From contig CAUYUJ010003570.1 in NCBI GenBank assembly GCA_963575745.1, positions 170,001-234,000 on the forward strand: a DNA stretch of 64,000 nucleotides, read 5' to 3'. This stretch comes from Prorocentrum cordatum. Its lineage: Eukaryota; Sar; Dinophyceae; Prorocentrales; Prorocentraceae. Positions 15,664 to 62,397 of this stretch are shown piece by piece; the first letter of the stretch is position 1, and the number at the start of each line of letters is the position of its first letter. The notes below the pieces were generated by a model. The model was not told the origin of the DNA and searched no databases. It was given only the letters and a program-made list of their open reading frames with translations. Position numbers and translations under genes: made by a program.

Positions 15664-18147
15664 CTACAAGCTTGGCCGCGCGGGCGCAGCATGAGCCATG
15701 CCGCGGAGGGCGCGTGCAAGCACGCCCATCGCCGCACGAAGCCGCTCGCGAAGTCGCCTCCGCCGCTCCTGCCGCAGCACCTCCGCGTCACCCTCGGAGA
15801 TGTACAGCGCGCTGTTCACGCGGTGGAGGTGCACCTCGCGGCCGCCCGCGAGCATCACAACGCACTGCTCCGCATCCCAGCTCATCCTGAGGCCAGGCTG
15901 CTCCATGTAAGTGGCGAGAGGGAACAGGCCCTGCAGGGACTCCCCCTCGACGTAGACCACGTCCGCCACCATCTTCGCGTCGACCTCGCCGCTGGCGGTC
16001 TGGAGCCTCACGTTGCTGCCGCGGATTGCTGAGGGGTCGCGCACCCCGCGCAACTCATGAGTGGCCCCCGTGTCTGCGAGAAGCATGCGCTCGCCGTTGA
16101 CCCCGGCGATTTTCGCCGAGACCCGGATCGTTTTCGCGCTCGGCTCGACGCCGGCCCAGAAGTCGACCGGCGCCGCCTGCCCCGAAGGGGCCTGCGGCAC
16201 TCCAGCGCCCATGCCCATGAGCGTCAGGAGCTGCGCGCTGACCTCAGCGCGCGCGGCCTGAGCAGCCACCTGCTCCATCGATGCCGCATCCGATTTCGAA
16301 GGAGCTGTCCCTGGAGCGGCCGGCGACGCCGTGGAAGCCAAAGATGCAGCAGCCCCTGGAGCAGCCACTGTCTTCGCCGGAGGCCTCGGGCGCTCACGCG
16401 CGTCCGAGCGGTGCTGGGGGGGCCCGCAGTTGAAACGCTTGCCCTCCTGCGGTTGGAGCTTTCGATGCCGATCTCGGCAAGCTCCTCCGCTGCCGTGCCG
16501 GCAGCGGCGGTCGCCCTCGAAATGCGGGCGCAACTTGAGCTCGCCCTTCACTCCGGAGCCCCAGCCAGGGCCATCTCCAGCGCCGCCTCCAAGAGGTGGA
16601 TGACCGCCTTTCGGGCCCCCCCTGCCGGCGCCCTTCGGCTTGCCACTTTTGTCCTTATCCTTGCCCTTGTCTTTGCCCTTCCCCTTCGGGTCCTTGCCAC
16701 CCTGGGGGGCCAGAGCTGCCACGCGAGCTGCCTCCTGCTGCTCGCTCCTGCCGCCGCCGCCGGACGAGCCCGCGAACTCCCGGGCCTCTGCTGACAAGTG
16801 CCTCCGCAACTCGTCGACCTGCGCCTGCGCGCAGACGCCGCCACTCAAGCCCCGCACCGCGAGGAACCCGCAGTAGCGGTGCTTGACCTCCTGGTCGCTC
16901 TCGATCATGCGGCCCACGATCGTCTTGAGAGTCGTCAGCCGGACCGACGGGTCTGGCGCAGCAGCGCCAAGCGTTGCGAGGCGCGTCGCATTCAGCTTCC
17001 ACCTCTGTAGCTCTTCGTAGGCGTGGGCCTGGTCGACGGCCTTGCCCTTCGAAGCCGCGTTCAACACGTAGTCCTTGTCAGCGGCCGCGCCGGGCCCTGC
17101 CTCGACAAAGGCCCCAAACAAGATGTCGCAGGTCGACGTCATCTTTGTGGAGAGGCGCTGCGACCTGACGCCATCTGGCATCAGATTCAGCAAGATGCTC
17201 CGCAACCGAAGCTCGCAGCTGCGGTAGTTGATTGCCTCGGCCTCCGAGGCAACCCAGTCCTCGGGCTGCGACGGCCTGATCCCAGGCCTGTCCAACGGCC
17301 CGTGCGCGAGGTACGAGCGGTGCGCCTCGGAGACGACGGCGACCACGCGCTGCCAGTTCTCTTGGATGAGGTGGTGCAGGCCGCCGAGCTCGAGGCTGAT
17401 CCTCTGCAGCCACCCCTCAAAGGCAGCTGCCTTCTGCCCCGTCGAACCCCCCTTCGGCCAGGACATAGAGGGGAGCTCGTTCGACTTCAACTTGCTCAGC
17501 ACCGTCTCCAAGGTGCTGTCGCGGCCTGCGGGCATCGAAGTCGCCGCAGTCGCTCCCCCACCGCCGAAAGGCGGCGGCGGTGGAGGTGGTCCGCCGCCTC
17601 CGCCGCCTGGTCCACCAGGCCCGAAGCCGCCACCTCCAGGGCCCTGAGGCCCGAATCTGCCAGGGCCGCCTGGCCCGCCATCGAAACCATCTCCCGGCTG
17701 CCCGGGCGGGGGGCCGAATCCACCGCCACCAGGTCCACCTGGTCCGCTCGGCCCGCCTCCTCCGCCGAAGTGTCCACCTCCAGTGCCTCCCGGAACACCT
17801 CCGAAGCCCTGAGATCCTGGGAATCCTCCCTGAAAGCCTCCACCAACTCCATGAACTCCAACTCCGCCACCACCATGTGGGACACCTCCTGCAAGACCCC
17901 CGGAGCCTCTTCCAGGTAGCCCAGCGCCTCCAGGAACACCGCCGCCCTGAGGATGACCACCTTCTGGATGTCCTGCAGGCGCGAACCCAGCATGAGCAGC
18001 GGCGCCGAGTCCTGGCGGCTGCTCCTGCTGCGTGGCGCTCGCCGGCGCCGCGGCTCCCACGGGAAACTCCTCGACGTGCTTGCCAATCGTATCAGCCGCC
18101 TCGCACGCGGCCTTCACCTCGTGAGTCTCGGCGGCAGTCCCCAGCAC
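15664..18147 (-). pseudogene. Copia-A Gag (Gly-rich) and aspartic protease
   Basis: An 827-residue frame. Residues about 55-195 are Gly/Pro-rich (GGGFGPGGPGGGGGG). About 215-430 is a helical capsid-like region. About 485-520 is a Lys/Gly basic tract (KGKGKDKGKDKDKSGKP). About 545-575 is a damaged zinc-knuckle region (FNCGPPQHRSDARERP) in which only one Cys and the His remain recognisable. The retroviral-type protease has its active site in LLADTGATHELRG near residue 690 (16063-16079). The frame stops at TAG 15664-15666 although integrase-like coding continues in phase. Its 5' end overlaps the N-terminal Gag frame by 56 bases in another phase. Confidence 0.85.
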
Positions 18148-18973
18148 CGCTCACGGCAAGCCCCCCCGCCTGAGACCAATCCGCGCCGTAGACGGTGTCG
18201 ATACCCTCGTCCTGGGCCTCGGCGATCTCCTCCTCCAGCCGCTCAGGCGACGAGGGCGTCGCGTACCCGCCTCGGGCTGACGCTGCGCTCCCTCCTCGGA
18301 GCCTGGCGTTCTCCTCCCTCAGAGCCTCCATCTCCGCGCGCATCCGGCTAAACTCGGCCATCACGTCTGCCATCTCGGTCGGCACGCCGCTGCCCGAGCC
18401 CTCGTCCGAGATGTCGAACTGCTCGAGGGCGCGCGGGCGCTGCGTCGCAGGTGCGCTCGGCAGCTCCACCGCGCGCATGCCCCGGATCGCTGACACGGCC
18501 CCCGAGGCGCAGCCTGTCATCAGCCTGGCCGCTCCTCCCACGGCCCCGGTGGCCACCGCGCCAATGGCCTGCCCCGCGTACTGGCCGCTGGCGCTCATGA
18601 AACACCCGAAGCCCGCGGAACTCACCGCCATCCTCCGCTGCGCCTGGTGGTTCGCGAAGGCGAAGTCCATCTCGCTGGCGCAGCTCGTGCACACCATGCA
18701 GCTCATTCGCCTCACCACGCAGTGGCTGTGCACGGGCGCGTGGCACGCCGAGCACGTGACAGAGGGCCTTGTCATCACGTCGGCGCACGCCTGGCACGTT
18801 CGGATGATCCACGTGCCCAATCCTGCAGCACATGCCGATGGAGGCGTCCAGGTGGTAGTCGAAGAGGATGCGGGGAAGGATGCTGAAGGTGCGCTTGGGC
18901 TCATAACCCTTGTGGACATCAGCGGGTGCTGGTCCACGAACGGGTGCGCAGAATACATCCTCTCGTTGCTCAT
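18092..18973 (-). pseudogene. Copia-A N-terminal Gag with Cys/His finger
   Basis: A 293-residue frame. If the first ATG (18973) is used, residues 1-21 are encoded by the 5' LTR. Residues 22-25 (RVMS) are encoded by the primer-binding site, which holds a second in-frame ATG at 18902-18904. Residues about 55-95 form a zinc-binding pattern: CQACADVMTRP, then CSACHAPVHSHC, then CMVCTSC (CxxC, CxxC, His, CxxC), as in RING/PHD-like fingers. A hydrophobic Gly/Ala segment (GQAIGAVATGAVGGAARLM) and a coiled-coil-like stretch (MRAEMEALREENARL) follow. The frame then needs a shift near 18100 to join the next Gag frame. Confidence 0.7.
18890..18910 (-). promoter_or_regulatory. Primer-binding site of Copia-A, anticodon-arm type
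   Basis: Directly downstream of the 5' LTR on the minus strand is AGGGTTATGAGCCCAAGCGC. Its complement (gcgcttgggctcataaccct) matches the anticodon arm of a Met tRNA (GGGCTCATAACCC, anticodon CAT) and not a tRNA 3' CCA end. Drosophila copia is primed in this way by the 5' half of initiator Met tRNA. No intact tRNA gene surrounds it. Confidence 0.75.
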
Positions 18974-46551: not shown

Positions 46552-48034
46552 TGCAAGGCATGGTAGTCTCAAGCATGGGAAAAGAGGGCACCTTAGGCGC
46601 AAGCGGGCTGTACACACTGTACGGTCAAGGAGCCAGGTAGCACATGTGGCTACGACCTGTGCAGCACTGGCAGCACTGCCAAGTGATGAGAATGCTCGGA
46701 TTGTTGGGCAAGCCGCCGATGCTCGCGATCTCTGGCTCGGAGTGCGGCCGCCTGTGCTGGAGGCAGCAGAAGGCAATTAGCAATGATCCACTCGCGGCAC
46801 CGTGGCCGGCGCGTATCGGAAACATGTGCCAACAGGCGCACTCGCTCTGGAAAATCTTTGTGGCATGCAGGGCACACAGACGACCCCAGCCGGTCCTGGA
46901 TCGACAGTGTCTGCCCATGCTTGCGGCGCTGGTGGCTCGCAAGGGCACGGGAACTGATGAAGGCGGCGCCGCAATGGCAGACGTGCTGCGCGGGTTGGCC
47001 GCGCTGTACAGGAGCGCGAATGTGATCGCAGACCGAGGGGGCAAAAAAGATCTTATCTACAAGCGCATTCCAATCGTTCCGCTTGGCCAGGAGGTCCTGC
47101 CAAGCAAGGGGGTCAGAGGAGAAGGAGGGGAACTCAGCAGGCAGAAATGGGTGAAAAAGAAAAGTATCACTCTCAATCTGCTCTACCCACTGCAAACGCT
47201 GCCCTCCAGGCCAGGCGTGCAAAATAGCAATCAAAGCACGCGGGCGGTGCGCGACCAGCCGAGCGAGATACTTCAGCCGCATGCGGATGATGTGGCATTC
47301 TATGGCTGGCTGCCCTAACATTTCGCGAATCTCGCGATCCGTGTGCTCGGTTCTGGTGAAGCGAGGCTCGTTGGCAATGCGCCTCAAAACGATCATGTAG
47401 GCACCATTCAGCTTCTTGAGCTTCCGCGGGGAGGGCGTCAGCACCTGCATGCCGAACAGCAGCTTGCTCATCGGAAGACAATGGAGGAATCGTATTTTGT
47501 GCGCCCGCTGGACGTGCTGGGACCCGAACACCTTCCAAGACAAGGGGGCGTAGGCCTGGAGCGTGCGGGTAGCCTTGGAGTTGACGTCCGCCACGCAGCA
47601 TTCCCGGAGAGACGTATGCACTCCCAAATGCTTATACGATGTGACAACGGCAATGCTAATGTCGCGCCCAGGCACGGCAATCCGAAGACTACCGTCCTCT
47701 TGCCGGCGAGCCTCACGATGGGCAGCGCAACGGGCGCCACGATACTGTAGCAATGCTTCTTTTTTTCCGGCAGAAGCGTTCAATTGCAATTGCAGCTTCT
47801 CGAACACCCCGAAGACGATGCCCAGCAGCTTGTCGATGTGATCGTCTAGGATACGCGGAGTCGGCGCCATGATAGCCAAAGCCTCGTCATCAATGAAAGC
47901 CGCATCGAGCAGCGACTCGGTCGGGGTCGCGTCGTCGCGCGGCGGAGCCCAGAAGGGCCCGTCGGGCAGCGGCAACTTCAGCGTGATGCCTGCCCGGTCG
48001 GCCTCCCAAGCAATCATATCGAGCGCAATGCCGT

Positions 48035-48037
<3 letters not shown>
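46550..48037 (-). mobile_element. 5'-truncated LINE (non-LTR retrotransposon) fragment
   Basis: The frame at 48068-46650 (472 codons, its first ten from the TA repeat) begins within a non-LTR RT. FIDDEALAIMAP is the catalytic xxDD box with Phe for Tyr, and SYKHLGVHTS is the following conserved block. After a helical region come two zinc-finger-like motifs near the C-terminus (CHCGAAFISSRALASHQRRKH, a Cx1C...Hx4H pattern, and CPACHKDFPERVRLLAH). These are nucleic-acid-binding tails typical of some LINEs. Endonuclease and the front of the RT are missing; truncation is at the right-hand TA tract. It is open over 460 codons, so the copy is fairly young or the tail is under constraint. Confidence 0.8.

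Positions 48038-48065
<28 letters not shown>
48038..48065. repeat. (TA)n microsatellite
   Basis: 28 bases of ta, continuing into cattattattatta on its right side; borders the truncated 5' end of the LINE. Confidence 0.95.
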
Positions 48066-48141
48066 CATTATTATTATTAGGCGAGTGTTGCGCGAGGCGT
48101 AGCAAGTTAATAGGGCGAACCGTAATCAGAGAAGTGAAAGC

Positions 48142-48506: not shown

Positions 48507-48589
48507 TTGACCGCGCGAGGGAGGGGGGGGGCCCAAACAGGATTTTTTAGCACCCCCTGGGCGCGTTGTCTGAATTGCTGGGGGGGCTC

Positions 48590-49195
48590 GAAATCGACCC
48601 CCCTCACGCAGATCGGCGGGGTTAGGGTCCAAAAACAAAGGATTTCCCACATTTCTGAAATTCGGTGCCTCCCCTCATGCAGATCCGCGGGGTCAGGGTC
48701 CAAAAACACATGGGATGTCCTACATTTCTGAAATTCGGTGCCACCCCTCACGCAGATCCGCAGGGCCAGGGTCCAAAAACATACGGGATTTGCCACATTC
48801 CTGAAATTCGGTGCCACCCCTCACGCAGATCCGCGGGGTCAGGGTCCAAAAACACAAGGATTTGCCACATGTCTGACATTCGGTGCCACCCCTCACGCAG
48901 ATCCGCGGGGTCAGGGTCCAAAAACTCATGGGATTTGCCACATTCCTGAAATTCGGTGCCACCCCTCACGCAGATCCGCGGGGTCAGGGTCCAAAAACAC
49001 ATGGGATTTGCCACATTTCTGAAATTCGGTGCCACCCCTCACGCAGATCCGCGGGGTCAGGGTCCAAAAACACACGGGATTTGCCACATTTCTGAAATTC
49101 GGTGCCACCCCTCACGCAGATCCGCGGGGTCAGGGTCCAAAAACACAGGGGATTTGCCACATTTCTGAAATTCGGTGCCACCCTTCACGCACATC
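48590..49195. repeat. 73-bp satellite array, eight units
   Basis: The core cacgcagatccgcggggtc plus agggtccaaaaacac recurs with 73-bp spacing from about 48605 to 49116; the last partial unit is at 49185. Units are nearly identical, so the array is young. 73 is not a multiple of three; the many ORFs over it are shadows. Confidence 0.95.
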
Positions 49196-49197
49196 CA

Positions 49198-49315
49198 TCG
49201 CAAGGCGTGGTAACCCAAACTGCGAGAACTCCCTCGGCCCTTTAATCGCAAGGTGTGGTAACCAAGCCCTTAAACCATACACGTCTTACCAATCGCCAGG
49301 TGTGGTAACCCCTCT
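49198..49315. repeat. Three copies of ATCGCAAGGTGTGGTAACC
   Basis: At about 49198, 49245 and 49291, period near 47 bp. Confidence 0.8.
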
Positions 49316-49471: not shown

Positions 49472-49630
49472 ATGAGCTTAGGCTGCTACCCGTGCCAAGA
49501 TCAACTTTTCCTTCGGCATGCTCCGCTGCTTCGAAGCAAATCAAGAGAACGAGCGGCAGGCGGTGACAGGGCAGCACGATGGCGCTGACCTGAACGGACT
49601 GAGCGAGCGGCATTCAAGACTCTGAGCCCC
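49472..49630 (-). repeat. YR-1 terminal repeat B2 (159 bp)
   Basis: Identical by eye to 49761-49919 (atgagcttaggctgctaccc ... tctgagcccc). Forms the outer left end of the element. Confidence 0.95.
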
Positions 49631-49682: not shown

Positions 49683-49762
49683 TCCTGGAAAAAACTTGAG
49701 CACAAGTACAACATACGGCACTGAACGCAGCAAGAGATCATTAATGTGCAAGCACAACGCAT
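49683..49762 (-). repeat. YR-1 internal repeat A2 (80 bp)
   Basis: Identical by eye to A1 at 55801-55880 (tcctggaaaaaacttgagca ... caagcacaacgcat). Separated from B2 by a 52-bp spacer and joined directly to B1. Confidence 0.95.
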
Positions 49763-49919
49763 GAGCTTAGGCTGCTACCCGTGCCAAGATCAACTTTTCC
49801 TTCGGCATGCTCCGCTGCTTCGAAGCAAATCAAGAGAACGAGCGGCAGGCGGTGACAGGGCAGCACGATGGCGCTGACCTGAACGGACTGAGCGAGCGGC
49901 ATTCAAGACTCTGAGCCCC
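49761..49919 (-). repeat. YR-1 internal repeat B1 (159 bp)
   Basis: Second copy of B2; its inner edge touches the TAG stop codon (49919-49921) of the methyltransferase-like frame. Confidence 0.95.
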
Positions 49920-50645
49920 TACCCACTGCCATCCAGTGTCTTGGCTTTGGCCACCACCAGCGCTGCTAGATCTTTGCAGAGCGCCGCGGGGTAAGGGCAC
50001 GCCCTCGAAGTCCAGAACACACCGAGCGGGTCTTTACCCTTCAGCGTTATGTGTGCCTTACCTGTTGCACTACACCTTTTTTGACAGCCTGAACACAGGC
50101 GGAGGGAAGGCTGCGCTGGCAGCCAATTGAAAAGCAAAAAGGTAGTCGCCTTTTTCCAGGGGACCTGATACTGGCAATAATCAACAGAAGCCCACTCGGC
50201 GTGAGCGTCGCGGGCCATGTCCAGCAGCTTTGGGACCAGCCAGAGGCGAGACGTGCGAGGGTGCTCGAGAGAGAAGGGGACTCCCGCCTCGACGGCCGCC
50301 GCCAGCAGGCGCAGAACATTAGCGAGCAGACGATTGGCGATCCTCACCTTCTCAGCGTCTGCCGCCGCCAGCAGAGGGAGGCCGTGCAAATTCGCATCGT
50401 CCCTGAGCGGCGGCGGACCCTGTCCATCATTCTTCCTTGCCCGGCTCCACGTTTTGCAGTCCAGGCCGACATGCACCCCCGCGACTTCCTTCCGTGAGAT
50501 CCTCAAAACCAGACTGTCGACGAGGGACTCATCAAGAAGTTCGGCTCGCGGGTCGTCAGCATAGTCCCAGCCTTCCGAAGCCCAGCCGGCGGCGTGGACG
50601 GCCTTGGCCAAGGCGGCGGAGCCGCACATGAGCTCGACGAACGGC
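49919..50645 (-). pseudogene. YR-1 methyltransferase-like domain (C-terminal)
   Basis: Last about 240 residues of the frame 53119-49919. FVELMCGSAALAKAV opens a Rossmann-type SAM-binding fold. GLDCKTWSRARK aligns with the catalytic GTPC/PPC-x-x-S loop of cytosine methyltransferases, with Asp replacing Pro before the Cys. PFSLEHPRTSRLW corresponds to the ENV-type block. WKKATTFLLFNW, a Cys-rich segment (LCSGCQKRC) and CPYPAALCKDLA end it. Many DIRS-type elements carry a methyltransferase-like domain; this one looks C5-like. It is in a different phase from the recombinase before it (shift near 50,700). The role is unknown and activity is doubtful. Confidence 0.65.
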
Positions 50646-50699
50646 CTGGCACGGGCGCGTGCCGCGGCACCTTGGCAGAAGGTGCGGGGCGGCGCATGC

Positions 50700-52071
50700 T
50701 GGGCACAGGTGCCGCCTGCAGCCGCGCCGACGGCGTGGCCGTCCGCGGCCTCTGGGGCCGCGCCAGGAGCCCCTCGAGCTCGGCGTGCAGCTTCGCGGGC
50801 GCCGCCTCGGCCCTGCGGCGGACGTCGACTGGGAGTGCCGCCAGCTCCTGCTGCACCAGCGCGTGGGCCTCGTAGCGTTTCATCGTGTAGTCGCTGGCCC
50901 ACCGCCCGCGCCTCTTGATCTCGTCCATGGAACGATACCTCTTGAGGCGATCGTGCGACGGGCCACCGTGGCGGAGCTGGTAGGGCACGTACTTGGTGGG
51001 CACCTCGGCCAGCTCCAGCGCCTGACGCCACGTGACGCCCAGCTGCGCGGCGGTGAGACGGAACAGCGGCGCCTGCGGGTCCCCCGACCTCGCGCGCGCC
51101 AGCAGCGGGCCCAGCCAGGGCACCTCGACCGAATCGAGGAGCAGGCTCTCGTCCGACAAGCTGGTCTTGCTGTGCTCGCCCCTCGCGCTGGGGTGCAGGT
51201 TGAAGCCGTAGTCCGTGCACGAGCCCGAGGGGAGGAAGAGGTCCTGCTCGCGCAGGCCGACGGCCTCGGAGGGCCTGAGGTACACCCAGAACATCGTCAC
51301 CACCATGAGCGCCGCGCGCGGGGGCCCCAGCTGCGTGGCCATCGCCAGCGCGACCAGCGCGACCACTTGCCAGGGCATGGGCGGGCGCGTCTGGCCTGGG
51401 TCCAGGCGCCTCCAACCCTGGAGGGCCCGACAGAAACGCGGCAGGCGGAGCGACCCCTTTCGGGAAAAATCGGGGTGCGCCGAGATGTACGCGGCATATG
51501 TTTTCAGGACGGCGGCTCTCTCGAGCCCGATGCTCCAGGCGTAGTCGGCGTAGTTCATCAGCGCCAGGTCGACCTGAGCCGCGGTGTGCAGCGGCAGCTC
51601 GAAAAGGTCCACGAACGTCTGGAAGTCGTCGAGGGCGTCCTTGTAGCATGCCTGGGTCTCGGGCGCCACCGCGTTCCACTCCAGGAAGCTCCTCTCGTCC
51701 TCCCCCACCATCGTGAATGGCCCAGAGGCCCGCAGACGGTGAGCAATCCTCTCCTCCTTCGTCGCCCCAACACACGGCCTGCCCTTCAAAAAGCTCTTCT
51801 GCACGATCTTGGGGCTGGCAGCTGGGCGCTTGACGGACACCGCGCGGGGCAGGCGGGACACCTCCCGACTTGGCATCCCAGCGCCTCGACCCCTCATCGG
51901 AGGGGTTGAGCTCCGAAGGTATCCACCGATGCTCGAACCGCGACGCAGTGGCGACGGAGTAGGCAGCCTCTCTGCGGCAGCACAGCAGAAGGGGATAGGA
52001 GGAGCATCGCCCACGTCCGAGCGCGAGCACTGTGCCGAGGTTGCCCCCAAAACGTAGATGTCGGAGACCAA
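50700..52071 (-). pseudogene. YR-1 tyrosine recombinase
   Basis: Lies in the frame 52071-50503; the genuine part runs from about 51870 to 50700. An N-terminal helical SAM-like domain (WNAVAPETQACYKDALDDF) precedes the catalytic domain. That domain has Arg in VYLRPSEAVGL, the YQLRHGGPSHD block (His and second Arg region) and RRGRWASDYTMKRYEAH, whose Tyr is the nucleophile. The recombinase joins the extrachromosomal DNA copy into the genome. All key residues are present. The domain sits between RNase H and the methyltransferase-like domain and is in another phase than both. Confidence 0.85.
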
Positions 52072-53119
52072 AGGAGGCCTGGGCCCTCGTGATATGACGA
52101 GATGTCATGTTCGAAGCCCCCCCCTCGATAATAGTAATGGGCTCCTTGACGTGAGCCCTGGCCGAGACCACCTGCTTCCACTGGGGGCCCTGCAGAGCCT
52201 GTACGGGCACCTCTGTGAACTGCGGGTTGAGCTCCCAGGGGTCCTTGATGAGGTCCATGCTGGTGCTCTTGGGGGCCTTGACGGTCTCGATGTCGCTGAA
52301 GACGTCGAACGGTCCCTCCGAGGCCTCATAGCCTCCAGAACGGACTCCCAGAGCAGAACGGCGTGCCGAGATAGCCGAAGGCATGCGATATCTCCATCTC
52401 TCACTGACTGACCCGATGCGCTTGACAAGATCTGATGACAGTGTTGTCTGACACGTGGCCATACCCGTCAAGCACGCGTCGTAAGCGAAGACCGTCGGCG
52501 ACCACTGAAGCCGAAGGTTGGCAGACATCAGCGGCAGCAGGCGACGGCGCTGCTCGACTTCGCGGGCAGCCGAGGGCCAGAGACGGGCTCGCACGTGATA
52601 GCACTCTCTGACGAAATCATACAAACTCCTGAGGATCGAGAGCAGCTCCCTCTTCAGCATCAGATGATCAATGAGATGACCCACGTACCTCTCCACCTCC
52701 CTCCCCGTGACTCTAGGGCGCTGCTCTAGCCACAGTGAAGCTTGGCGGAGGCGCTCGGAGCGCTCGGGCCGTGAGAAAACTCGCCCAGACGCGCCGTCGA
52801 TCGGACGGCCGAGGCTGGTGAAGACGTCAGTGGCCTCGACCACCTCGTGAATCTGCACGCCATGCTTCCTCCAGGCGTCGCAGATCTGGTGCATCAAAAC
52901 ATTGCATCTGACAGGGTCGGTGCCGATGACGTTGATGTTATCGCAATAGGGGAGGAGGCAAGGGAACCCCCCGTCGAGCGGGGGCACCGGGCCGTGATCG
53001 GTCAGCACCCGCGGGAACCCGAGCCCCGAGGCAGAGCAGCAGACGTGCGCATTCGCACGCTGCCCAAGCCAGAAAAAGCCCAAGACCAGCCCATCGGAAC
53101 GACCCGCAGGAACGGCCAA
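51880..53119 (-). pseudogene. YR-1 RT C-terminal half and RNase H
   Basis: First about 410 residues of the frame 53119-49919. LLPYCDNINVIG (about 52938-52949) is the RT active site with Y-C-D-N instead of YxDD; Asn at the second Asp position is common in DIRS-type elements. VGHLIDHLMLKRELLSIL is the thumb region. RNase H follows with VFAYDACLTGM, IIEGGASNMTSRH and RWIPSELNPSDEGSR. The phase moves to the recombinase frame near 51,870. Confidence 0.85.
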
Positions 53120-54159
53120 ACCCAGCCCCCCGAGGGGCCCTCGGGAGTGCCCACTGCCTCAACCCCCCATTGCGACAACGAAGCCTGCGACACCGGAGGC
53201 AGCGAGAAGAACAGTCCCAGCTCCTCCCTCAGGCCGAGAGCGTAGAAGTAGTTGCGCACGTCAGCCTGGGCGCAGAAAAGCTTGGTGTTGAAGCTGCCGT
53301 CCTCCTTACGATCATCAGGTAGCTGTAGGCGACCGTGCGCCGCCGATGTCCCCATGGCCAGCGGCGGCGGGTCGCGAAAACGTCGATTTGGCACTCTAGC
53401 GTCCCGCGCTAGACGCTGCGCTCCACTCTTCTTGGCCACGAAAAAGGGAGCGACTAAATCCTTCGGGCGGTACGTGAAACCCAGCATGTTAGCCTTCACC
53501 AGGTCGCCGATGAAAGTGTGGTACGCCACTGGGTCACGCTTCAAAACTTCATCCATGTAGGGGGTGACGGGCGGCTCGCTATCCAGGACGCGGGACCACT
53601 CGTCAGGAGTCTTCATCATGGCTTGCTCGTAGTCCAGCACGTAGCTCCTCCCGATCCCGTCGAGCACCGACTCAACAGGAGGTATGACCGCACCCACTTC
53701 TGGGATGTCGACTCGGGATCTGACGTACCTTACCACGGGACTCGGTGCCTCGTCCGCGGTGTAGGACAGGCTGGAGGCCAGGAGCTCCTTCGCGGCTCCA
53801 CGGCGAGAAAAGTGAGTGTCAGACTTCGGGGCCATTCTGACCTCGTTCAAAATGGCGGCGGTAGCAAGCCGCTGAGCCGCCGTGATGGGCCCACGCTGCT
53901 CGCACGGAGGATGGAGAGCGTTGAGACCCGCAATGGCATCATTGGCACACTGCTCCGTCTGCCGCCTATGTGCCAGCCTTCGCCTCGTCGACGTAGACGC
54001 TGGCGCAGAAGTAGGCGGAGTCGGCTGAATGGAGGGCAGCGGGAACAGATCACGCTGGCGATCGTCCGCTGCACTCAGCCCAGGAGGGCGCCCCCTGTCA
54101 CTACCACAGGCCTTGTGCACGTCGCGGGCCGGCCAGCCCCCGCGACTGGGAGCCGTCAT
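53066..54159 (-). pseudogene. YR-1 ORF3 start: RT N-terminal half
   Basis: Frame 54159-53002. The ATG overlaps the stop of ORF2 as ATGA (54156-54159), so translation by termination-reinitiation is plausible. After a Pro/Ser-rich leader, helical ANDAIAGLNALHPPCEQRG precedes RT motifs: DLVAPFFVAKKSGAQRLARD (fingers), FCAQADVRNYFYALGL (first catalytic Asp) and RVVPMGWSWAF. At about 53,075 the phase is lost in a run of five T (AAAAA on the plus strand). One extra T would carry the sense into the next frame (WLGQRANAHV), so this may be a mutation or a homopolymer base-calling error. Confidence 0.85.
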
Positions 54160-55379
54160 GATCCCTGCCCGCCAGTACCGCTGGCGTCGGTCCTGTAGCC
54201 CCCCTTGCCGCGGCGCAGCTTCTGCTCCTCCTTCGCCTTGCGAGCCTCTTTGAAAATCGCTGCCCTGTCGCGCATGCCCGCGGCCACGTGGCGCTGCAGG
54301 TCGGGCGCGACGGCGGCGCCCTGGCGATGCGCGGCCCAGCCCATGAACTCATCGGCCGCGGAGTAGTCTGGGTTCGAGGGCGAGGCGGAGTGAGCATCCT
54401 CGATGACCTGGATCCTGCGCACGACGAGCTCGGCGCTCTGGAGCGCAGGGGCGCTGAGCTGGTCCACAGTCACGATTGCCTCCAGCACATGGCACAGCAC
54501 CTCGTGTTCGTGAACTGAACGATCTCCATCAGGGATGCGAGCCGACCTCAGCCAGTTCGAGTGGTGAGTGACTGGCGTGAGCCCGGCATCCCGATACGAC
54601 CTCAGCACCCAATCCGTAGTGCGAGGGCCCTGCAGCATGATGCCTCCCTCAGGCTCATCCACGATCTGCATGTCCACGGCCTCGCTGTCAGGGCGACGGC
54701 GCGCCCCCTGCTGGTTGAAACGCACAGGCAGCACGCGCAGGTCGTCCACGACGAAGGCATCCACGTCGGCTAGGGCCACCTGGCGCGCTCCGACGAAGCC
54801 CCCTCCATGAGGCACCAGCGCCAGCTCCCCGTGTACGACGGCACCCTGAGGGAGAGGATCAGGCATCTGCTCGCCGCGCCGCATCCCCTGGAAGTCCTCA
54901 ATAGCCAGCCAAACTGTGCCAGCCACTGCGGGGGCGGCCGCGGCCCCAGCGCGGGGGACCCCTCCCACCACGCCAGCGCCTCGAGGCACGATGGCCCCCT
55001 GCGGTGCGGCCGCCGCGGGGGGAGCCGCCACGGGCGCCGCTGCGGCGGCAGGAACAGCGGCAGCAGGCGGCGCCACCCCCCCGATCAGGAGCGAGCCCTC
55101 GCGGATCAGCTGCTGGACCTCGGCCGCCGTTGGCACCTGGCGGAAGCGGTAGACGTGGGCGGGGTTGACCCCAGGGGGGGTGGCGCCCTGCGCTCCCGAC
55201 CACCGCACATCTCTGAGGTCGTCGGACGTCGTGTACTCGGCGTAGTGGTCCCCGTCTGGCGAGAACGTGCTGACAAGACCTGGATCCCCGATCGAGACCC
55301 CTGTCACGAGCCTCTCATGATACACCGGCGCTCCAGGCAGGTCATACTGGAAGAGCACGTAGTCACCTACTCTCGCCAT
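54156..55379 (-). CDS. YR-1 ORF2: Gag-like protein
   Basis: 407 residues, intact. It starts MARVGDYVLFQYDLPGAPVY and is Ala/Pro-rich at about residues 100-150. A conserved C-terminal half shared with YR-2 follows (DLRVLPVRF, DWVLRSYRDAGLTPV, HHSNWLRSARIP, DQLSAPALQSAELVVRRIQV). It ends in a Lys/Arg-rich tail (KARKAKEEQKLRRGKGG) suited to nucleic-acid binding. No known Gag fold is recognised by eye; the position before RT and conservation between two elements support the Gag role. The start overlaps ORF1's end by 17 bp; its stop overlaps ORF3's start by 4 bp. Confidence 0.7.
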   Translation of the reverse strand: MARVGDYVLFQYDLPGAPVYHERLVTGVSIGDPGLVSTFSPDGDHYAEYTTSDDLRDVRWSGAQGATPPGVNPAHVYRFRQVPTAAEVQQLIREGSLLIGGVAPPAAAVPAAAAAPVAAPPAAAAPQGAIVPRGAGVVGGVPRAGAAAAPAVAGTVWLAIEDFQGMRRGEQMPDPLPQGAVVHGELALVPHGGGFVGARQVALADVDAFVVDDLRVLPVRFNQQGARRRPDSEAVDMQIVDEPEGGIMLQGPRTTDWVLRSYRDAGLTPVTHHSNWLRSARIPDGDRSVHEHEVLCHVLEAIVTVDQLSAPALQSAELVVRRIQVIEDAHSASPSNPDYSAADEFMGWAAHRQGAAVAPDLQRHVAAGMRDRAAIFKEARKAKEEQKLRRGKGGYRTDASGTGGQGS

Positions 55380-55788
55380 TGCGCCTCCTGATCAGCTGCA
55401 GCTGCTCTCGCGCTCGATCTCCGACCCCTGTCGCCTCGGCGTCGACGCGGCCGCCCCGCCGCCAGAGTGCGCCGCCCAGCCCGAGCCCCGCAGAGGCTCC
55501 TGCCAGGTATCCCCAGCAGGCCGAGGGGATGTCGAGCCCGTCAGGGACGAGCTCCGCTCCTGCAGGCGGGCAGGAGAGATCCACCAGCGGCACGGGACAC
55601 GCTGGGGTCGGGCAGGCCAGCGCTGGGCAGACCTGGACGGGGCAAGAGACGTTCGCGGGCGGGCACGCCAGCGAGACCGCGGGGCACTGGGGCACCGCCG
55701 AGATCAGGGACTGGCGCAGCGCCAGCAGCTCGAGAGCACGGATCCCTGCAGACTGGAAGGTCTCGATGAGGGCGGACTGCGCCCCCAT
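55363..55788 (-). CDS. YR-1 ORF1: small Cys/Pro-rich putative membrane protein
   Basis: 141 residues from the first ATG (55786-55788), 12 bp inside repeat A1. A helical N-terminus (SALIETFQSAGIRALELLAL) is followed by a Cys/Pro-rich segment with regularly spaced Cys (CPAVSLACP, VSCPVQVCPALACPTPACPV, LSCPPAG). Then comes a likely membrane helix (ACWGYLAGASAGLGLGGALW) and a basic tail. The frame is open upstream through A1 but has no ATG there until the flanking microsatellite. No family recognised. Its stop overlaps the ORF2 start, as in compact retroelements. Confidence 0.5.
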   Translation of the reverse strand: MGAQSALIETFQSAGIRALELLALRQSLISAVPQCPAVSLACPPANVSCPVQVCPALACPTPACPVPLVDLSCPPAGAELVPDGLDIPSACWGYLAGASAGLGLGGALWRRGGRVDAEATGVGDRAREQLQLIRRRNGESR

Positions 55789-55800
55789 CAGGGAAACCAC

Positions 55801-55880
55801 TCCTGGAAAAAACTTGAGCACAAGTACAACATACGGCACTGAACGCAGCAAGAGATCATTAATGTGCAAGCACAACGCAT
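55801..55880 (-). repeat. YR-1 terminal repeat A1 (80 bp)
   Basis: Outer right end of YR-1; identical by eye to A2 (49683-49762). Any promoter of the element should lie here or just outside. Confidence 0.95.
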
Positions 55881-56426
55881 ATGTATATACATGTATCTGC
55901 ATCCAAATATATAATTGCACACGAACATTTAAGTACATGCTTATGTCTATGTCTACGTCTATGACTACGTAAACATGCATGTGAATGTGTGTACGTGTAT
56001 GTCTACATAGGTGTATGTGTATGGGTATATGTATCGTTCGTATGAACATTCAAATGGCTATGTGTATAACTATGCACATACGTATGGATGCATGCGCATA
56101 TTTGTTCATATGTATATGTATGTGTGCATGCATATGTTTAGGTATATATAGAGGTGCTTTTTAACATTTCCATTTGTATATATATATAGGTGCATGTATA
56201 TGATTATGCATACGTACGTGCATATGTACATACATGAATCTATGACTACAGGCGTTGTGTAGGTGTATGTGCGTATGCATGTACGCATGTCTGCATATGC
56301 GTGTGCCAACATGTATGTATATTTGTTTGTTTGTATGTATACATGTATGTATGTGTGTATGTGTGCTCGTATGTACGTGTGTATGCATGTATGTATGTAT
56401 GTATGTATGTATGTGTGTGTATGTAG

Positions 56427-56464
<38 letters not shown>

Positions 56465-56520
56465 TGTTTGTATACATATATACACATGTATGTATGTATT
56501 CACATCCGCTACCGTGCCGC
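55881..56520. repeat. TATG/TA microsatellite field
   Basis: About 640 bases of atgtatgta, tacatgtat, tgtgtatg and (TA)n (56430-56462). Cys/Tyr/Val-rich or His/Ile/Tyr-rich frames over it are artefacts. Confidence 0.95.
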
Positions 56521-57235
56521 TGGGCACGGAGTGGGCGTGTCCTCAGGTCATTCGCCTAATCCCTTAAGCATCATCCATCACCCCTGAGGAGTCAAAGGGG
56601 ATCGGACCTCAAATTCAAATGTGGCGGGGCTTGTCGAGTTTTGTCGCTTGACTTTTTCGGAACCAAGGGGGCCCCAAGACGGGCCGAGCGGGCCCCAATA
56701 GGCCCCAAAACGAGAGCCCCTAATCGCCGAACGACCGCTCCAAAACGCGCAAGATTGCCCCCCCAAAGGCCCAAGAGGCCAAAATCATGATTTCCTTACG
56801 TTTTCGAACGATTTGGCGTTCCCGCCGGCTTCCCGACGCTCCAAGACAGTACACGAGGCCCCCAGGATCGCTCGAAGACGGCCCCAGAGGCCCTCATGCC
56901 GACACGGCCCAAAATGGCCCCAAGAGGCGCCCACGACGGCCCAAGAGGGCCCAACGACGGCCTCTAGAGGGGGCCCAGATGGGGAACCCGAGCGGACCTT
57001 TCGAGCCCTCTGCCCCGAGGGGCCCCCAGGAGGCCCCAAGAAACCCCCAAGAGGCCCCCAAGACCCAAGAGGTGCCCAAGATCCCCCAAGAGGCCCCCAA
57101 GAGGCTCCCAAGAGGCCACCAAACTGCTCCCAGGAGGCCCCCGAGAGCGCTCCGAAGAGACCCGAAGAAACATCCCTGAAAACCCTGACCCGCAACCCAG
57201 GCACGGTGGCGGGATGGACCGAAATCATTTGCTTG
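56521..57235. repeat. Dispersed ccccaag repeat with its conserved terminus
   Basis: 56640-57110 is a dense array of ggccccaagacggcc motifs. 57120-57222 matches the termini at 9690-9770 and 11235-11320 (cccccgagagcgctccga, accctgacccgcaaccc, ggtggcggg). Confidence 0.7.
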
Positions 57236-57302
57236 TATATATCTCTCTCTCTTTCTCGTTCTCTCGTTCTCTCTCTCTCTCTCTCTTTCTCTCTGTTCTC
57301 TC

Positions 57303-57334
<32 letters not shown>

Positions 57335-57560
57335 GCGGGTATCAACGTCATCGTCGATGTCGTCGCCCTCGTCAAAATTCTGCTCGCGCGCTTCCTCATC
57401 GCACTCACCAACACAATCGTCAACATCATCGCCAGCTTTAACGTTGCCACCGTCATTGTCAAAGCCATCAACATCAACATCATCACCACTGCTGTCGTCG
57501 GAATCGGCACCACCTTCGTCATGAACACATCATCGCCTTCGTCATCGATGTTGTCGCCGC
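57236..57560. repeat. (CT)n tract and (GTCATC)n-like tract
   Basis: 57240-57335 is ctctct with few interruptions. 57338-57560 is a degenerate catcgtcatcatc repeat. Confidence 0.9.
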
Positions 57561-58052
57561 CCAGGTGGGTTTTGCGAACAATCTGCGGCTGTGTGGGTGG
57601 GATGCTTGCGCAGACATTGGATGTGGCAACGCGCATATGCGGTCTAAGTTTCTGAATTCAATTGCATTGCGCAGATTTATAAACACATCGCACATCGAGA
57701 ATACAATGACCCACTGCTTGCGGTCCGCGCAAACAAACATTTATCACTGAATACGCCTGGCCTCCCTTTCTGCCCCGATAGCTGGCCCACTATACCAATC
57801 AGGAAAGAAAACCAAGTCAACAAATTTCCTCTCAATATGGCCGTGTTGTAGTCAACATGTGGCAGAATGGGTGGCAGGAGTGGATAAGGCGACATTGCGC
57901 GCTAACGAGGTCTCGTTATCGCCCAAGTTCCGCTCAGATTGTGCGGTTCCGTCCAAGCGCAGCGCAAGATTGTAGTTTGACAAAAAATTGGCAACGGGAC
58001 GGCACCCGAGAGAGCAAAACGACGCATTCGAACAAGAGCTGGGTATGCTTCG

Positions 58053-58058
<6 letters not shown>
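57561..58058. other. Unassigned stretch
   Basis: Mixed sequence of about 500 bases; no gene or repeat recognised. Confidence 0.5.

Positions 58059-58089
<31 letters not shown>
58059..58089. repeat. (AT)n microsatellite
   Basis: 31 bases of at, immediately followed by the left end of YR-2. Confidence 0.95.
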
Positions 58090-58090
<1 letters not shown>

Positions 58091-58270
58091 GTTCACCAGC
58101 TCAACGGCGGTGAAGCGCGGAGCGCTCAGATCTAGACAAAGAGGAGCAGTGCCAACATGCTGATCATCTCACTTATTCTCTGGCCGACCTCGACAAGGCT
58201 CCGAGACACAAGAAGTAGCAACTCGTGCTCAAGAAACAAGGTGTCGTGCCGGCACCACAGCGCTCTCCCA
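58091..58270 (-). repeat. YR-2 terminal repeat B2 (180 bp)
   Basis: gttcaccagctcaacggcgg ... cgctctccca. Imperfect copy of 58399-58578. Confidence 0.92.
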
Positions 58271-58398
58271 AATAATAGAGTACAAGGGACGGAGGGCGGG
58301 GGACCAAAAGAAACTGCAAGAGCGGCCAATGATCCCCCTCGGACAATTGGCCTGAGACCGCCTCGCCGCATCTAAACAAAACAGTCGAAGACAAAAAT
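58271..58398 (-). repeat. YR-2 inter-repeat segment, expected to be A2
   Basis: 128 bp between the two B copies. In YR-1 this place is held by A2, so a matching copy is predicted at the element's far end outside the window. Confidence 0.5.
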
Positions 58399-58578
58399 GT
58401 TCAACAGCTCAGCGGCGGTGAGGCGCGGAGCGCTCGGATCTAGACAAAGAGGAGCAGTGCCAACATGCTGATCATCTCACTTATTCTCTGGCCGACCTCG
58501 ACGAGGCTCCGAGACACAGTAAGTAGCAACTCATGCTCAGGAAACAAGCTGTCGTGCCGGCACCACCGCGCTCTCCCA
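58399..58578 (-). repeat. YR-2 internal repeat B1 (180 bp)
   Basis: gttcaacagctcagcggcgg ... cgctctccca. It sits 22 bp downstream of the recombinase stop codon (58601-58603). Confidence 0.92.
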
Positions 58579-58600
58579 TAACTCCCATATCCAATGGACT

Positions 58601-59680
58601 TCAGGGTGGGCGGGCTGGGCACTGCGATTCCATCGCACGGATGTTCTGAAGGATGCGTGGGAAGCGCGAATGAAGCCACTGCAAGCTGGCGTCGCCATCA
58701 ATACCTGTGATCGACTTCAGGCGCTCGAGCTGCTTGAGAAGCCTACCCTTTTCCTCGTGCCGCTTGCAGCTCGCCAGACTTCTCCGCCGGCCTCTCTTTT
58801 GAATCTGCGCCATCGGGAGGTCGTCCAGGCCATCGGCGGAAGCGCCTCCGCGCCGCAGGCAGCCCGGGGTGAGCTGGAGGCCGCCGAGCTTCAGCTCCTC
58901 CACGCCCCGTCGGAAGATGCGCTCGTACCCCGCGAGCGTCGGGCCAGCGAACGCAAGCTCTCCGACGGCGGTCGCCCGATGGAGAACGGAGAGCACCTTC
59001 GACAGGAGCGGCCGCCTGACCTCGGAGGTCTCGCCGAAGAAGATCGCGTCGTCGAAGTCGCCGCTCTTGGTCGGCCGACCCTCCTCCTCCGGGCAGATCA
59101 TCGCCGCCCAGCAGCGGCGCCCGCCTCGAGCGCCTTGTGGCTGGATGAGCTGGCCCCGCCCCAGTCCGAGGCCTTCCGAGGCCCGCAGGTCGCCGTCGAA
59201 AAGCACTAGCGTCAGCGCCGCCGCGTTCACCATCACTAGGCTGCGCTGCTCGCCCATCCAGCGGGCCAGTGCCAAGGCCGCCTCCCAGGGGCAGCCATCC
59301 CGCGACCTGATCTGCGAGGCTTTGCGGAAGCCTCGCAGGGCGCGCCGGGTCCGAGGGAAGTGCGGCGACTTCGCCCAGACCTCGTCGATGTGGAACATCA
59401 GCGCGTGGATGGCGTTGTTGGCGCGGGACGAGGACTCCCCGTCGAAATAGAGCTTGTCGAGGTAGCTCTCGAGAGCCATGTCGCGCGCCTCGGGAGTCGC
59501 GGTCGCCAGGTGCTGCGACTTCCACCCCGCCGTCAAGTCGTCGCGCTCGCGCTGGTAGACGCGCAGGGTCGCTGGCCCCGCGGATCTCTGCTTCAAGTAG
59601 CCCTCCTGCCCGGGCGCGGCGACGACCTGCTTGGCGACCGCCCGTCGGCGTGAACTCCGACGTTGCCGAGCGCTGGAGGG
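58601..59680 (-). pseudogene. YR-2 tyrosine recombinase, catalytic Tyr lost
   Basis: Within the frame 59956-58601. An N-terminal helical domain (LRVYQRERDDLTAGWKS) is followed by the catalytic domain. The first Arg is in VLFDGDLRASEGLGL. The block LTPGCLRRGGASADGL has Arg where the family has His after LR. QKRGRRRSLASCKRHEEKG has His at the place of the nucleophilic Tyr and Arg for the usual Trp. With two key positions replaced, strand transfer by this copy is not expected. The frame itself is intact over 350 residues and lies last before the terminal repeats, unlike in YR-1. Confidence 0.8.
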
Positions 59681-59989
59681 TGGGCGGCTGTCGACGCCGT
59701 CCTGCGCCAGAAGTCCCAGCGGAGGCATCCCGCCGCCTGGAAGGCTCGCCTGGCTTGCCAGTCGCCCGGCCCAGCGAGCGGAGGGCGAAGCGCCGCCGAT
59801 CCGCGCTGTCACCGCAGAGCTGGTGGCCGGCAGCGTGCCCCCATCCAGTAGCAAACCGCCGTGGACAGGTGGGGGCCGCGAGCGGCTTCGGCCGCGTGAC
59901 CCGCGCGGCGGCGGCCAGCTCGCGCACCCAGCGGGGGTCGAGCAACGGCTCGCCATCCCGCCGAGGCGCGGTCCGACCCAGGGCCCTCT

Positions 59990-60630
59990 TGAGCCCCTCC
60001 GCGGCGACCCGACACAGACCTGGGGGATAAGCTGCTGACGGGGAAGTCCTCCATTTCCAGACGTACTTGCCGGCCCCGTCCAGGACCGTCACTTTGCCTT
60101 CGAGGAGCTCGTGGGGGAATAGGCACATGCACTTTCTCTCAATGATCTTCAGCTCAGGGAAGTTTGTGAAGAAGACGGTGGGCTTCTTGTATGGGGGGGC
60201 CCGTGGCGGAAACAGTGGTACCCGATGGACTCGCACTTCATGTGGTTGAACATACTGACCTGACCAGGGGCTGGTACTTTAGGAGCCTCGAGGACGCCGG
60301 GTTTTCAAGCGATACAGGCACCCCAGACTTGTGGCACGCCTTGAGAACCTTTACGGTGAAGTCAGCACACCCTAGACCCGCCCGAGAGCCCTCCGAGTCC
60401 CTGGGCCCCGTGTTGTTTGCGACGCTCCAGCGTGTACAAGGAGGAGCAAGGTGGACGTGACTAACATGCCCTCGAACAATCCACTGTATGATCTTTTGCT
60501 GTACACTCACATCGAGAACGTTGAACTGCGGCCCCGCTGACGCGTCCACTGGGCACAGGATACGCAGCCCACTCGCCAAGCGCGCGCCAGAGAGCCTCGA
60601 GCACCCGCTGAAGACCTCCAGCACGCCAGC
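59990..60630 (-). pseudogene. YR-2 methyltransferase-like domain
   Basis: The first half is the C-terminus of the frame 62382-60238: VLEVFSGCSRLSGARLASG (SAM-fold start), VHLAPPCTRWSVANN (the PPC catalytic loop of C5-cytosine methyltransferases, intact here) and PVSLENPASSRLL (ENV-type block). The second half is spread over two other frames: SMFNHMKCESIGYHCF near 60,225, then YKKPTVFFTNFPELKI and AAYPPGLCRVAAEG in the frame starting at 60236. It lies between RNase H and recombinase. Of the three such domains in the window this keeps the best catalytic loop but is broken by shifts. Confidence 0.7.
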
Positions 60631-62382
60631 GCGGCCGCGGCTGCTCCGAGCCGCGGGGCCACCGCTGGGAGGCGCTGCGCTGCGGAGCCGACCCAGGCGC
60701 GCCGCGAGGCGACCGCCGCGCAGCGCCTCGCCTGGTGCCAGCAGCCCCCGCTCCGCCAGCCGCGAGTCCGAGTCAGTGGGGTTGCGAGCCGTCTCCACGT
60801 AGCGTCGCACCCGCTTCACCTCGGCCCCAGGCTGGACGGCGGCGGCCAGCCGGTAGATCACGTTCAGGGCGGGGCTGCGCGCCCAACCCCGCTCCGTGGC
60901 CAAGACCTCCGAAGGATTATCGCCGAGGGGCAAGACCGCGCCGCCATGGCTCGCGGGGCCCCGAACAGCATGGTGCAGCCCTGTCAGTGCGATCCTCGCC
61001 TCCTTCATGTGGATCGCCTCACGCCTCTGCCGGGCGCCCGCCAGCAGCCGTCGCCAGCGGCCCGCAGCCGCCATGCTGTCGGGCAGCGCGGGAAGGATGC
61101 CAGTCGCGCGGGGGCGCGGGAGCCCGGCCTCGACCGCCTTCGTCGCCTCGACGGGCGCCAGGTTGCTCGCCCGAGCCGCGCGGCGGGCAGGGCGGTCGCC
61201 AGCGTTCGCGCCAGGCCAGCCGCTGTCCTCCACTTCTAGGTCGGCGCTTAGCTCGCAGAAGTCGGCAGCAAGCCCGGATTGAGCACCAGCGAGACCTGGC
61301 CCCTCCTCCTCCTCGGCGTCGGCGAAACGCCGGCGCTCCCGCCGCCGGCAGACGTCGCGCAGCTCGCGCCTCTCGAAGTCGCCCAAGTGGATCGCGTAGC
61401 CGCCCGTCGAGGCGTCCGCGCAGAAGGCCGTGGTGTAGTGGTGAGGTCGAAGCCGACTCCGGACAAGAATAAATAGGCGACGGCGCGTGACCAGCTCTCC
61501 TCGTACGCGACAGTCGAACCGACGGAAGCGCCCCAAGTTCTCAGAGCTGAGCACATGCAGCTTCGAGGGGGCGCCCAGGGCCGGCCGCGCCAGCATGAAG
61601 AAGTTCACCAGGTGCCCCAATACTATGCGCATCACTTCACCTGTGCAGCCGGCCCGTAACTCCAGTTGCCGCAGCGCATGCCACAGTCGCCAGAACAGCG
61701 ACCGCCGCTGTCGCCAGGGGAACTTAGCGCCCTGGAGCTCGAAGCCCACCATGTCCAGGTTCGGGTCGCACTCAGCGTTGCCCCGCAGGGTGAAACCACG
61801 CTCGCTCAGAACGGCGACCATGGACTCGTAGAAGATGCCGGCATCCTCGCGGTCGAAGGAGAGCAGGTTGCCGTTGTCTACGAAAGGCGCGGCGATGGGC
61901 TTACCTTTGGCCAGCCGGGGCGCAGGCCGCCCGTCACGCAGCAGCTGAGCCTCAGCTGGCGCCCAGTCGCAGCGCATCACGCGGACGAGCGACTCCACCA
62001 TCGCGTCGGTGAGCGCGGAGTGGCAGATTAACAGGGCCCACGTCCAGCCCATGGGCGCGCCGCAGAAGCAGGGCCACACAGCATCCGCCGCCGCGACCGG
62101 CAAGCGGGCGCCCTTCCCGTCGACGACGTCAAACACCTCGGAGATGCCTGCCTCCGCCGCGGTCATGCGGCAATCGAAGCCGAACCAGTCGCTCATCACC
62201 CTGAGGCACAGCTGGTAGAAACCGTCCTGGAGGTCGACCGCGGCCCCGCACAACTCCAGAGAAGAGGCCGATCCCGGTTCCAAAGCCTCGTCGCTGAGAT
62301 CCAGGGCGGACGCGGCGCCGGGCGTCGCCAGGTAGGAGTGCGGCGGTCGCCTGTGCCAGTGGTTGGGAACACGGGCGTCCAC
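60630..62382 (-). pseudogene. YR-2 reverse transcriptase and RNase H
   Basis: Frame 62382-60238 (714 codons). RT: VDLQDGFYQL (first Asp), CGAPMGWTWALL and APFVDNGNLLSF (catalytic F-V-D-N). The thumb region LRGNAECDPNLDMVGFELQG follows. RNase H: AFCADASTGGYAIHLGDF, HMKEARIALTGLHHAV and ARNPTDSDSRLAERG. The N-terminal fingers (FIGLFTVIKKDG) lie upstream in the same phase behind a TAG at 62398-62400. Confidence 0.85.
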
Positions 62383-62397
62383 GATGAGCCGCAGCCA

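Follow-up and report, generated by a model that had tools for sequence, protein, structure and literature searches.

The closest described systems are DIRS1-like elements, the PAT, Ngaro and VIPER elements, and SymbioDIRS-Dnmt3 of dinoflagellates; here they are compared with two tyrosine recombinase (YR) retroelements, YR-1 and YR-2, on the minus strand of a 64,000-nt stretch of Prorocentrum cordatum (contig CAUYUJ010003570.1, positions 170,001 to 234,000), termed the window. DIRS1-like elements comprise gag, YR, and a pol gene with reverse transcriptase (RT), RNase H (RH), and methyltransferase (MT) domains; pol and YR may overlap considerably, with the catalytic part of YR in the non-overlapping 3ʹ end (PMC3266345). 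Their MT is of the Dam (adenine) type (PMC3783388), and their ends are inverted repeats with an internal complementary region. PAT, Ngaro, and VIPER elements have A1-genes-B1-A2-B2 ends and RT/RH and YR open reading frames (ORFs) that are often extensively overlapped (PMC3266345, PMC3783388, PMC6681497), overlap of pol and YR being in itself known (PMC3266345, PMC6681497). Ngaro and VIPER carry no MT, and the relevant sections of those sources describe no nested YR with a downstream MT. Among dinoflagellates, Symbiodinium has unusually methylated genomes, and DIRS-like SymbioDIRS-Dnmt3 elements have split A-B-A-B repeats and a C5 MT in pol (de Mendoza et al. 2018, PMC5890265). Because two SymbioDIRS-Dnmt3 structures with shuffled domain and ORF order have been published, order shuffling as such was already known (PMC5890265). 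A review of accessory domains mentions DIRS elements with Dam and with C5 domains, nesting not being described in the sections relied on here (PMC6338049).

YR-1 and YR-2 share features with each of these systems. The YR-2 order, RT-RH-MT-YR, is that of DIRS1-like elements, whereas YR-1 reads RT-RH-YR-MT, with the catalytic YR inside pol and MT after it. Unlike the Dam-type domain of DIRS1-like elements, the MT is C5-like, and the ends of YR-1 are split direct repeats rather than inverted ones. Such ends are shared with PAT, Ngaro, and VIPER and with SymbioDIRS-Dnmt3, the full set being seen in the window for YR-1 only. In SymbioDIRS-Dnmt3, however, the DNMT is Pfam-recognisable and falls in the Dnmt3 clade, YR is a separate ORF, and no overprinting is described in the relevant sections of the source (PMC5890265).

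We interpret YR-1 and YR-2, with good confidence, as split-direct-repeat YR retrotransposons with a C5-MT-like domain in pol, in which the YR-1 recombinase is overprinted on a probably selected pol linker and one old rearrangement separates the two orders. Both would be organized as A1-genes-B1-A2-B2, and in frame-intact copies the recombinase would be read at +1 to the pol frame. YR would follow MT in the YR-2 lineage, as is usual for DIRS elements; in the YR-1 lineage, MT would lie downstream of YR yet in the pol frame, the entire YR domain being overprinted on the linker between RH and MT. The product of reverse transcription would be a circle whose ends meet at the B-A junction; YR would insert it at AT-rich simple repeats, and the putative MT may methylate cytosines in either the cDNA or host DNA. 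YR would be expressed by a separate route, for which a +1 frameshift, trans-splicing, and an internal start are candidates. Complete nesting of YR, with pol continuing beyond it, appears to be new as a variant; among the titles and abstracts of open-access papers listed by the searches, none describes a YR gene inside pol and upstream of an MT. The arrangement shows how a tyrosine recombinase can ride inside pol while leaving pol uninterrupted, and it makes of the domain swap an overlapping-gene system that can be tested, in which sister copies that have kept or lost a working recombinase provide a built-in control.

The nesting is visible in the YR-1 pol ORF (53158-49919), which is stop-free from RT via RH to MT and spans the entire recombinase domain (Table 1). 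The recombinase frame is +1 relative to pol, and the two frames overlap completely. Profile hidden Markov model (HMM) matches in this 1079-aa ORF are confined to residues 29-430 (RT/RH) and 833-1072 (MT), and in YR-1-type pol generally the linker between them measures about 390-400 residues. Many dinoflagellate and environmental proteins of ~1300-1400 aa are likewise built of RT, RH, a domainless middle, and MT. In Symbiodinium natans there is one protein per frame, and both fit a single DNA over 353 consecutive residues at shift +1; at shift +2 the same pair gave no run of ≥15 residues. Read at +1, the window pol linker scores 213 against the S. natans YR, with controls at ≤39. Scored against known YR proteins, 16/16 pol ORFs, the window among them, revealed a YR hidden at +1, with scores well above those of shifted and shuffled controls.

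The same signal extends to a wider set of relatives, taken as the best 120 of 149 matches among proteins 0.55-1.75 times the query length; owing to these bounds, ORFs ending just past RH are under-represented. Of these 120 proteins, 100 come from ena, lgn, or jgi sources alone and were assumed to be unspliced ORFs; the other 20, being gene models, were left out. RH-to-MT read-through occurs in 69 of the 100, with linkers of 335-425 residues. One further protein reads through and also matches YR, 10 slip to the YR frame, 17 stop mid-linker, and three lack an RH end. The slips from pol into YR sit at differing places, as expected in decaying copies with two overlapping frames. YR was scored with a strict profile that excludes pol-frame stretches from ORFs switching frame part-way; on this basis, all 69 read-through ORFs conceal a +1 YR (minimum score 202, control maximum 48). 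In the protein sequences of five YR-2-type tails (P0014, P0017, P0013, P0016, and P0006), no hidden-YR signal exceeded control level. Viral and genome contig collections scanned with the pol alignment yielded no relatives. Within the window's own assembly (4.13 Gb, 21,875 contigs), at least 87 of the 130 MT matches listed (~200 residues or longer) lie in an MT frame of ≥700 open aa, and at least 44 in one of ≥1300. Several pol proteins have misleading public names such as ANK1, Ankyrin-1, or RNA-directed RNA polymerase (P0041, P0051, P0066, P0128, and P0028), and several of the misnamed proteins join both frames in one model, presumably via predicted introns. The overlap may explain such models, whether they bridge two frames or bear unrelated names.

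Because base composition alone can keep a second frame open, three tests for selection on the pol frame were made. In the first, four YR proteins were recoded synonymously in 2000 draws at varied third-position GC: an open second frame arose in 0/2000 at ≤0.75, in a fraction of 0-0.003 at 0.85, and in 0.12-0.17 at 0.95. Third-position GC is 0.90 in the window YR and about 0.73 in that of S. natans. Within the same test, third-base T was counted ahead of codons where it would create a pol stop. In the window YR-1 gene, it stands before 0/79 such codons vs 24/296 elsewhere, and in S. natans before 0/59 determined codons vs 24/211; the corresponding counts in the non-nested YR-2 gene of the window are 1/61 vs 16/239.

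The second test compared polymorphic columns by pol codon position over 876 nt of the overlap in 13 intact-YR copies, L014 and L023 being left out because their YR is broken. Control sets were RT/RH (12 intact-YR and 6 YR-dead copies) and MT (13 and 5). In intact-YR copies, overlap columns are spread evenly over positions 1/2/3 (40/36/37), whereas the controls favour position 3 (36/35/70 for RT/RH and 25/19/65 for MT). The third test used six YR-dead copies (L024, L025, L027, L028, L030, and L031): their YR is ~68 codons shorter and has lost its catalytic end (H, R, W, and Y), while pol stays open through MT, over 1522 codons in four. Their overlap columns read 18/23/48 (p 1.7e-4), a pattern unlike that of intact-YR copies (p 0.007) but not significantly unlike that of RT/RH and MT in the YR-dead copies (p 0.13). 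The third-position bias persists with any single copy removed (p ≤0.0021) and without CpG columns (p 0.004), and in 6/6 YR-dead copies identity to the window is higher in the pol frame than in the YR frame. Because YR-dead copies vary mainly at pol position 3 and intact-YR copies evenly, the pol frame is probably constrained in its own right across the overlap. The YR-dead subfamily presumably multiplied by being moved by the recombinase of complete relatives.

Several observations weigh against overprinting on a selected frame or against a single old split. Open second frames are common because the genome is GC-rich, with 98 stop-to-stop ORFs of ≥200 aa in the 64 kb, and by itself the window YR-1 copy is unconvincing. 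A pol stop lies inside the overlap in 1/20 copies (L013). Polymorphism is not clearly sparser in the overlap (113/876) than in RT/RH (141/1080), being about equal to it and slightly below that of MT (109/708), and fixed differences between the intact-YR and YR-dead subfamilies show a trend only (p 0.09). The copies in the position test are related, so that columns are not fully independent, and in the YR-dead subfamily the YR frame too is stop-free over the 292 codons compared. Finally, an RT tree that includes the long rows P0046 and P0021 divides YR-1-type proteins into two groups, at weak support (84/54).

A rival reading is that pol is open through YR by base composition only and yields no product there, MT being made separately by splicing or from its own start after a simple rearrangement of independent genes. 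High GC does open second frames in the simulation at 0.95, and public P. cordatum gene models (P0022-P0028 and P0030) place YR and MT in one protein, presumably via predicted introns. YR-2-type pol is also open over much of YR in all three loci whose YR ORF is intact, yet in four YR-2-type copies the part of YR read shows few changes, and these follow YR codon positions (6/3/11), an ordinary YR pattern; they are too few for a significant difference from YR-1-type copies (p 0.17). Composition alone nevertheless accounts poorly for read-through in 69 of 100 ORFs, for a frame open in S. natans at a third-position GC where the simulation produced none, for the absence of stop-making third bases before risk codons, and for pol-type bias retained after YR has died, and we regard this explanation as quite improbable. 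It is instead likely that a whole integrase gene of ~350-450 codons is +1-overprinted on a selected part of pol between RH and the C5 MT across a large dinoflagellate clade, with the constraint on pol outlasting the death of the integrase. If true, one stretch of a cellular retroelement would encode two full-length products, in an arrangement both deep and conserved.

The MT has a C5 cytosine methyltransferase fold; it is neither of the Dam type of DIRS1 nor recognisably Dnmt3. Of the 69 read-through ORFs, 60/66 with a residue at the position keep the motif IV Cys and 64/64 the motif VI Asn. We take motif IV (catalytic Cys) and motif VI (ENP-like) to be the corresponding C5 methyltransferase motifs. 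The Pfam model PF00145 matches one of 17 MT domains (1.8e-4), the best PDB sequence match is DNMT2 (0.0026), and PF05869 (Dam-type) matched nothing among the window ORFs and MT domains. A tblastn search of phages with two MT domains also returned no match. With this domain, dinoflagellate retrotransposons gain a methyltransferase-like lineage that is not recognisably Dnmt3. The Pfam and PDB values bear on the suggestion that the elements are the published SymbioDIRS-Dnmt3, for which two domain orders are already on record. In its favour are the common host group, ends of the A-coding-B-A-B type, and the two shuffled structures (PMC5890265). Its DNMTs, however, were found with PF00145 and lie within Dnmt3, and the relevant sections describe YR as a separate ORF and do not mention nesting (PMC5890265), so that identity with SymbioDIRS-Dnmt3 seems very improbable.

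YR-2-type MTs are 24-28% identical to the window YR-1 MT and align with it over their length, with motif positions in common, and on this alignment the two appear to form one C5-like family. Had each lineage captured its own C5 methyltransferase at a different pol site, the GPPPLR segment, which is present in YR-1-type MT and missing from YR-2-type MT, would be readily understood, and repeated captures have been reported (de Mendoza 2018, PMC5890265, in the sections used). Proteins with MT ahead of RT exist as well (P0044 and P0046), and in the MT tree they lie on the YR-1-type side. The full-length alignment and the congruence of the RT, YR, and MT trees (the last without an outgroup C5 enzyme) speak against separate capture, which we consider possible though unlikely. 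P0044 and P0046 represent a third arrangement, with the same MT family; by eye, P0046 is apparently MT-RT-RNase H.

The trees were built from 39 (RT), 26 (YR), and 41 (MT) author-chosen rows of fetched proteins and are unrooted; an RT tree with P0046 as outgroup contains a branch of 8.7 and was not used for rooting. YR-1-type and YR-2-type proteins separate at 100/100 for RT and 95/95 for YR, and in the MT tree the two groups are supported at 88/92 and 97/84, respectively. The first-pass annotation had proposed modular exchange or independent capture of the methyltransferase and advised building separate trees in search of conflict; because all three give the same split, a recent exchange of modules between YR-1 and YR-2 is unsupported and was rejected. 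The difference in order is better seen as one old rearrangement separating two lineages, as part of the interpretation given above with good confidence. We infer that the YR-1 order is the derived state, because DIRS1-like pol is RT-RH-MT with the catalytic part of YR at the 3ʹ side (PMC3266345, as far as the relevant section goes).

The swapped order itself, which the same annotation had pointed out, is borne out by cross-matches in a window-only search and by further copies. YR-1 and YR-2 match in RT (32%, E 3e-13), YR (26%, E 2e-13), and MT (29%, E 6e-5), and more weakly in the Gag-like protein (YR-2 at 63401-63153; 30%, E 7.5e-4), whose sharing between the elements is thus the least firmly supported. 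Because these modules cross-match, they are, on sequence similarity, homologous, and their order is swapped. The annotation had overlooked that the YR-1 recombinase lies nested within pol, in another frame. Twenty further YR-1 copies from the same genome were taken from those with the closest MT: all 20 read RH-YR-MT, with RT ahead in 19, the exception being L023, whose stretch as read contains no RT and an incomplete RH. RH-to-MT spacing is a multiple of three (1212, 1221, or 1014 nt) in 19/21 sequences including the window, L014 and L023 being the exceptions; RT5, RH, and MT share one frame in 12/20 copies, and the Gag-like ORF is present in 19/20, only in part in L026. Three of three divergent loci also have RH-YR-MT, pol being read in frame 2 and YR in frame 3. 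Of 11 distinct loci in the window's own genome, counting the window, 10 have the YR-2-type order; at the eleventh (L004) no YR was found within the stretch read. RT, RH, and MT lie in one frame in the YR-2-type relatives L003, L005-L008, and L033-L036.

Misassembly or two adjacent insertions, the caution attached to the first-pass annotation, found nothing else in its favour. One order in 20/20 copies (18 of which fall into three spacing classes), the same order at the divergent loci and in proteins from other genera, and a single A1...B1-A2-B2 structure around YR-1 leave a chimeric origin with a negligible probability. Relatives are present in other dinoflagellates and in environmental data, and the best protein matches are from P. 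cordatum.

The window copies are themselves imperfect. YR-1 has a frame change inside RT, near 53.1 kb, its RT/RH lying within 54348-51869 on the minus strand and its pol stop codon at 49921-49919; YR-2 has a frame change inside MT, and its catalytic YR Tyr is replaced by His. The recombinase of YR-1 matches the PHROG_1 integrase (E 4e-4), and PF00589 is found in 3/7 YR members (best 7e-4). In an alignment of seven YR rows, R, K, and R are kept in 7/7 and H, W, and Y in 6/7, the exception being the window YR-2 copy; we take these R, K, R-H, W, and Y positions to be the tyrosine recombinase residues. A search of PDB with the YR profile gave no match. PMGW and Y-D-N motifs, presumably those of RT, and an end motif, presumably that of RNase H, are seen in pol, and PF00078 is precomputed on many YR-1-type relatives. 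Among the window proteins Pfam recognised no RT, searches with entire window ORFs against Pfam, NCBIfam, and PHROGs returned almost nothing, and P0006 gave only unrelated weak matches by sequence in PDB.

The ends agree with the earlier recognition that both elements share a B1-A2-B2 type of terminus (Table 1), A1 of YR-2 not being seen in the window and its expected position lying beyond the window edge. Among the 20 further YR-1 copies, 17 have A and B repeats twice each, and B2 is shortened in L014. In copies keeping A1, similarity to the window begins at the first base of A1 or at most about 40 bases upstream. All 19 readable 5ʹ flanks, window included, end in T before A1 (ATGCG in 14, ATGCT in three, ATGTG in one, and GTGCG in one), and 3ʹ flanks are mostly AT- or ATGT-type repeats among 19 readable. 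Because the B1-A2 junction shares AT and the flanks end in T or in AT-type repeats, the ends are as expected if a circle recombines at a short core of AT. YR-2 likewise ends at a TA repeat. The circle-recombination model is the one published for this group of elements (PMC3266345, relevant section).

Table 1. Coordinates of YR-1 and YR-2 features in the window
Feature	Position	Strand	Details
YR-1 terminal repeat A1	55801..55880	-	80 nt, 100% identical to A2
YR-1 Gag-like ORF	54156..55391	-	411 aa
YR-1 pol ORF part 1 (N-terminus and RT fingers)	53002..54348	-	32% to YR-2 RT
YR-1 pol ORF part 2 (rest of RT, RNase H, linker, methyltransferase)	49919..53158	-	1079 aa, no stop
YR-1 tyrosine recombinase gene, +1 frame of pol	50503..51876	-	ATG 51876; ORF 52104-50503; domain 51843-50764
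YR-1 C5-type methyltransferase (MT) domain	49937..50653	-	
YR-1 repeat B1	49761..49919	-	159 nt, 100% identical to B2; first base is last base of pol stop
YR-1 repeat A2	49683..49762	-	bases AT common to A2 and B1
YR-1 repeat B2, element 3ʹ end	49472..49630	-	flank starts ATATGTAT
YR-2 pol ORF: RT, RNase H, MT part 1	60238..62397	-	RT/RH 62397-60751; MT 60651-60241
YR-2 MT part 2, different frame in window copy	59979..60218	-	
YR-2 tyrosine recombinase ORF	58601..60088	-	domain 59641-58709; +1 to frame of MT part 2
YR-2 repeat B1	58399..58578	-	94% to B2
YR-2 repeat B2	58091..58270	-	flank is TA repeat

Directly downstream of the YR-1 3ʹ end, a tandem array with a 73-base unit in 8 registers occupies 48558-49296. 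An ORF at 46650-48125 (minus strand) has a FIDD stretch that is RT-like by eye and, near its end, a C2H2 zinc finger (zf-C2H2_4, E 6e-4, under its cut-off); it is perhaps a LINE-type remnant beside YR-1. Elsewhere in the window, a GC-rich block contains long open frames of 696 aa (12147-14237) and 828 aa (15664-18150), both on the minus strand.

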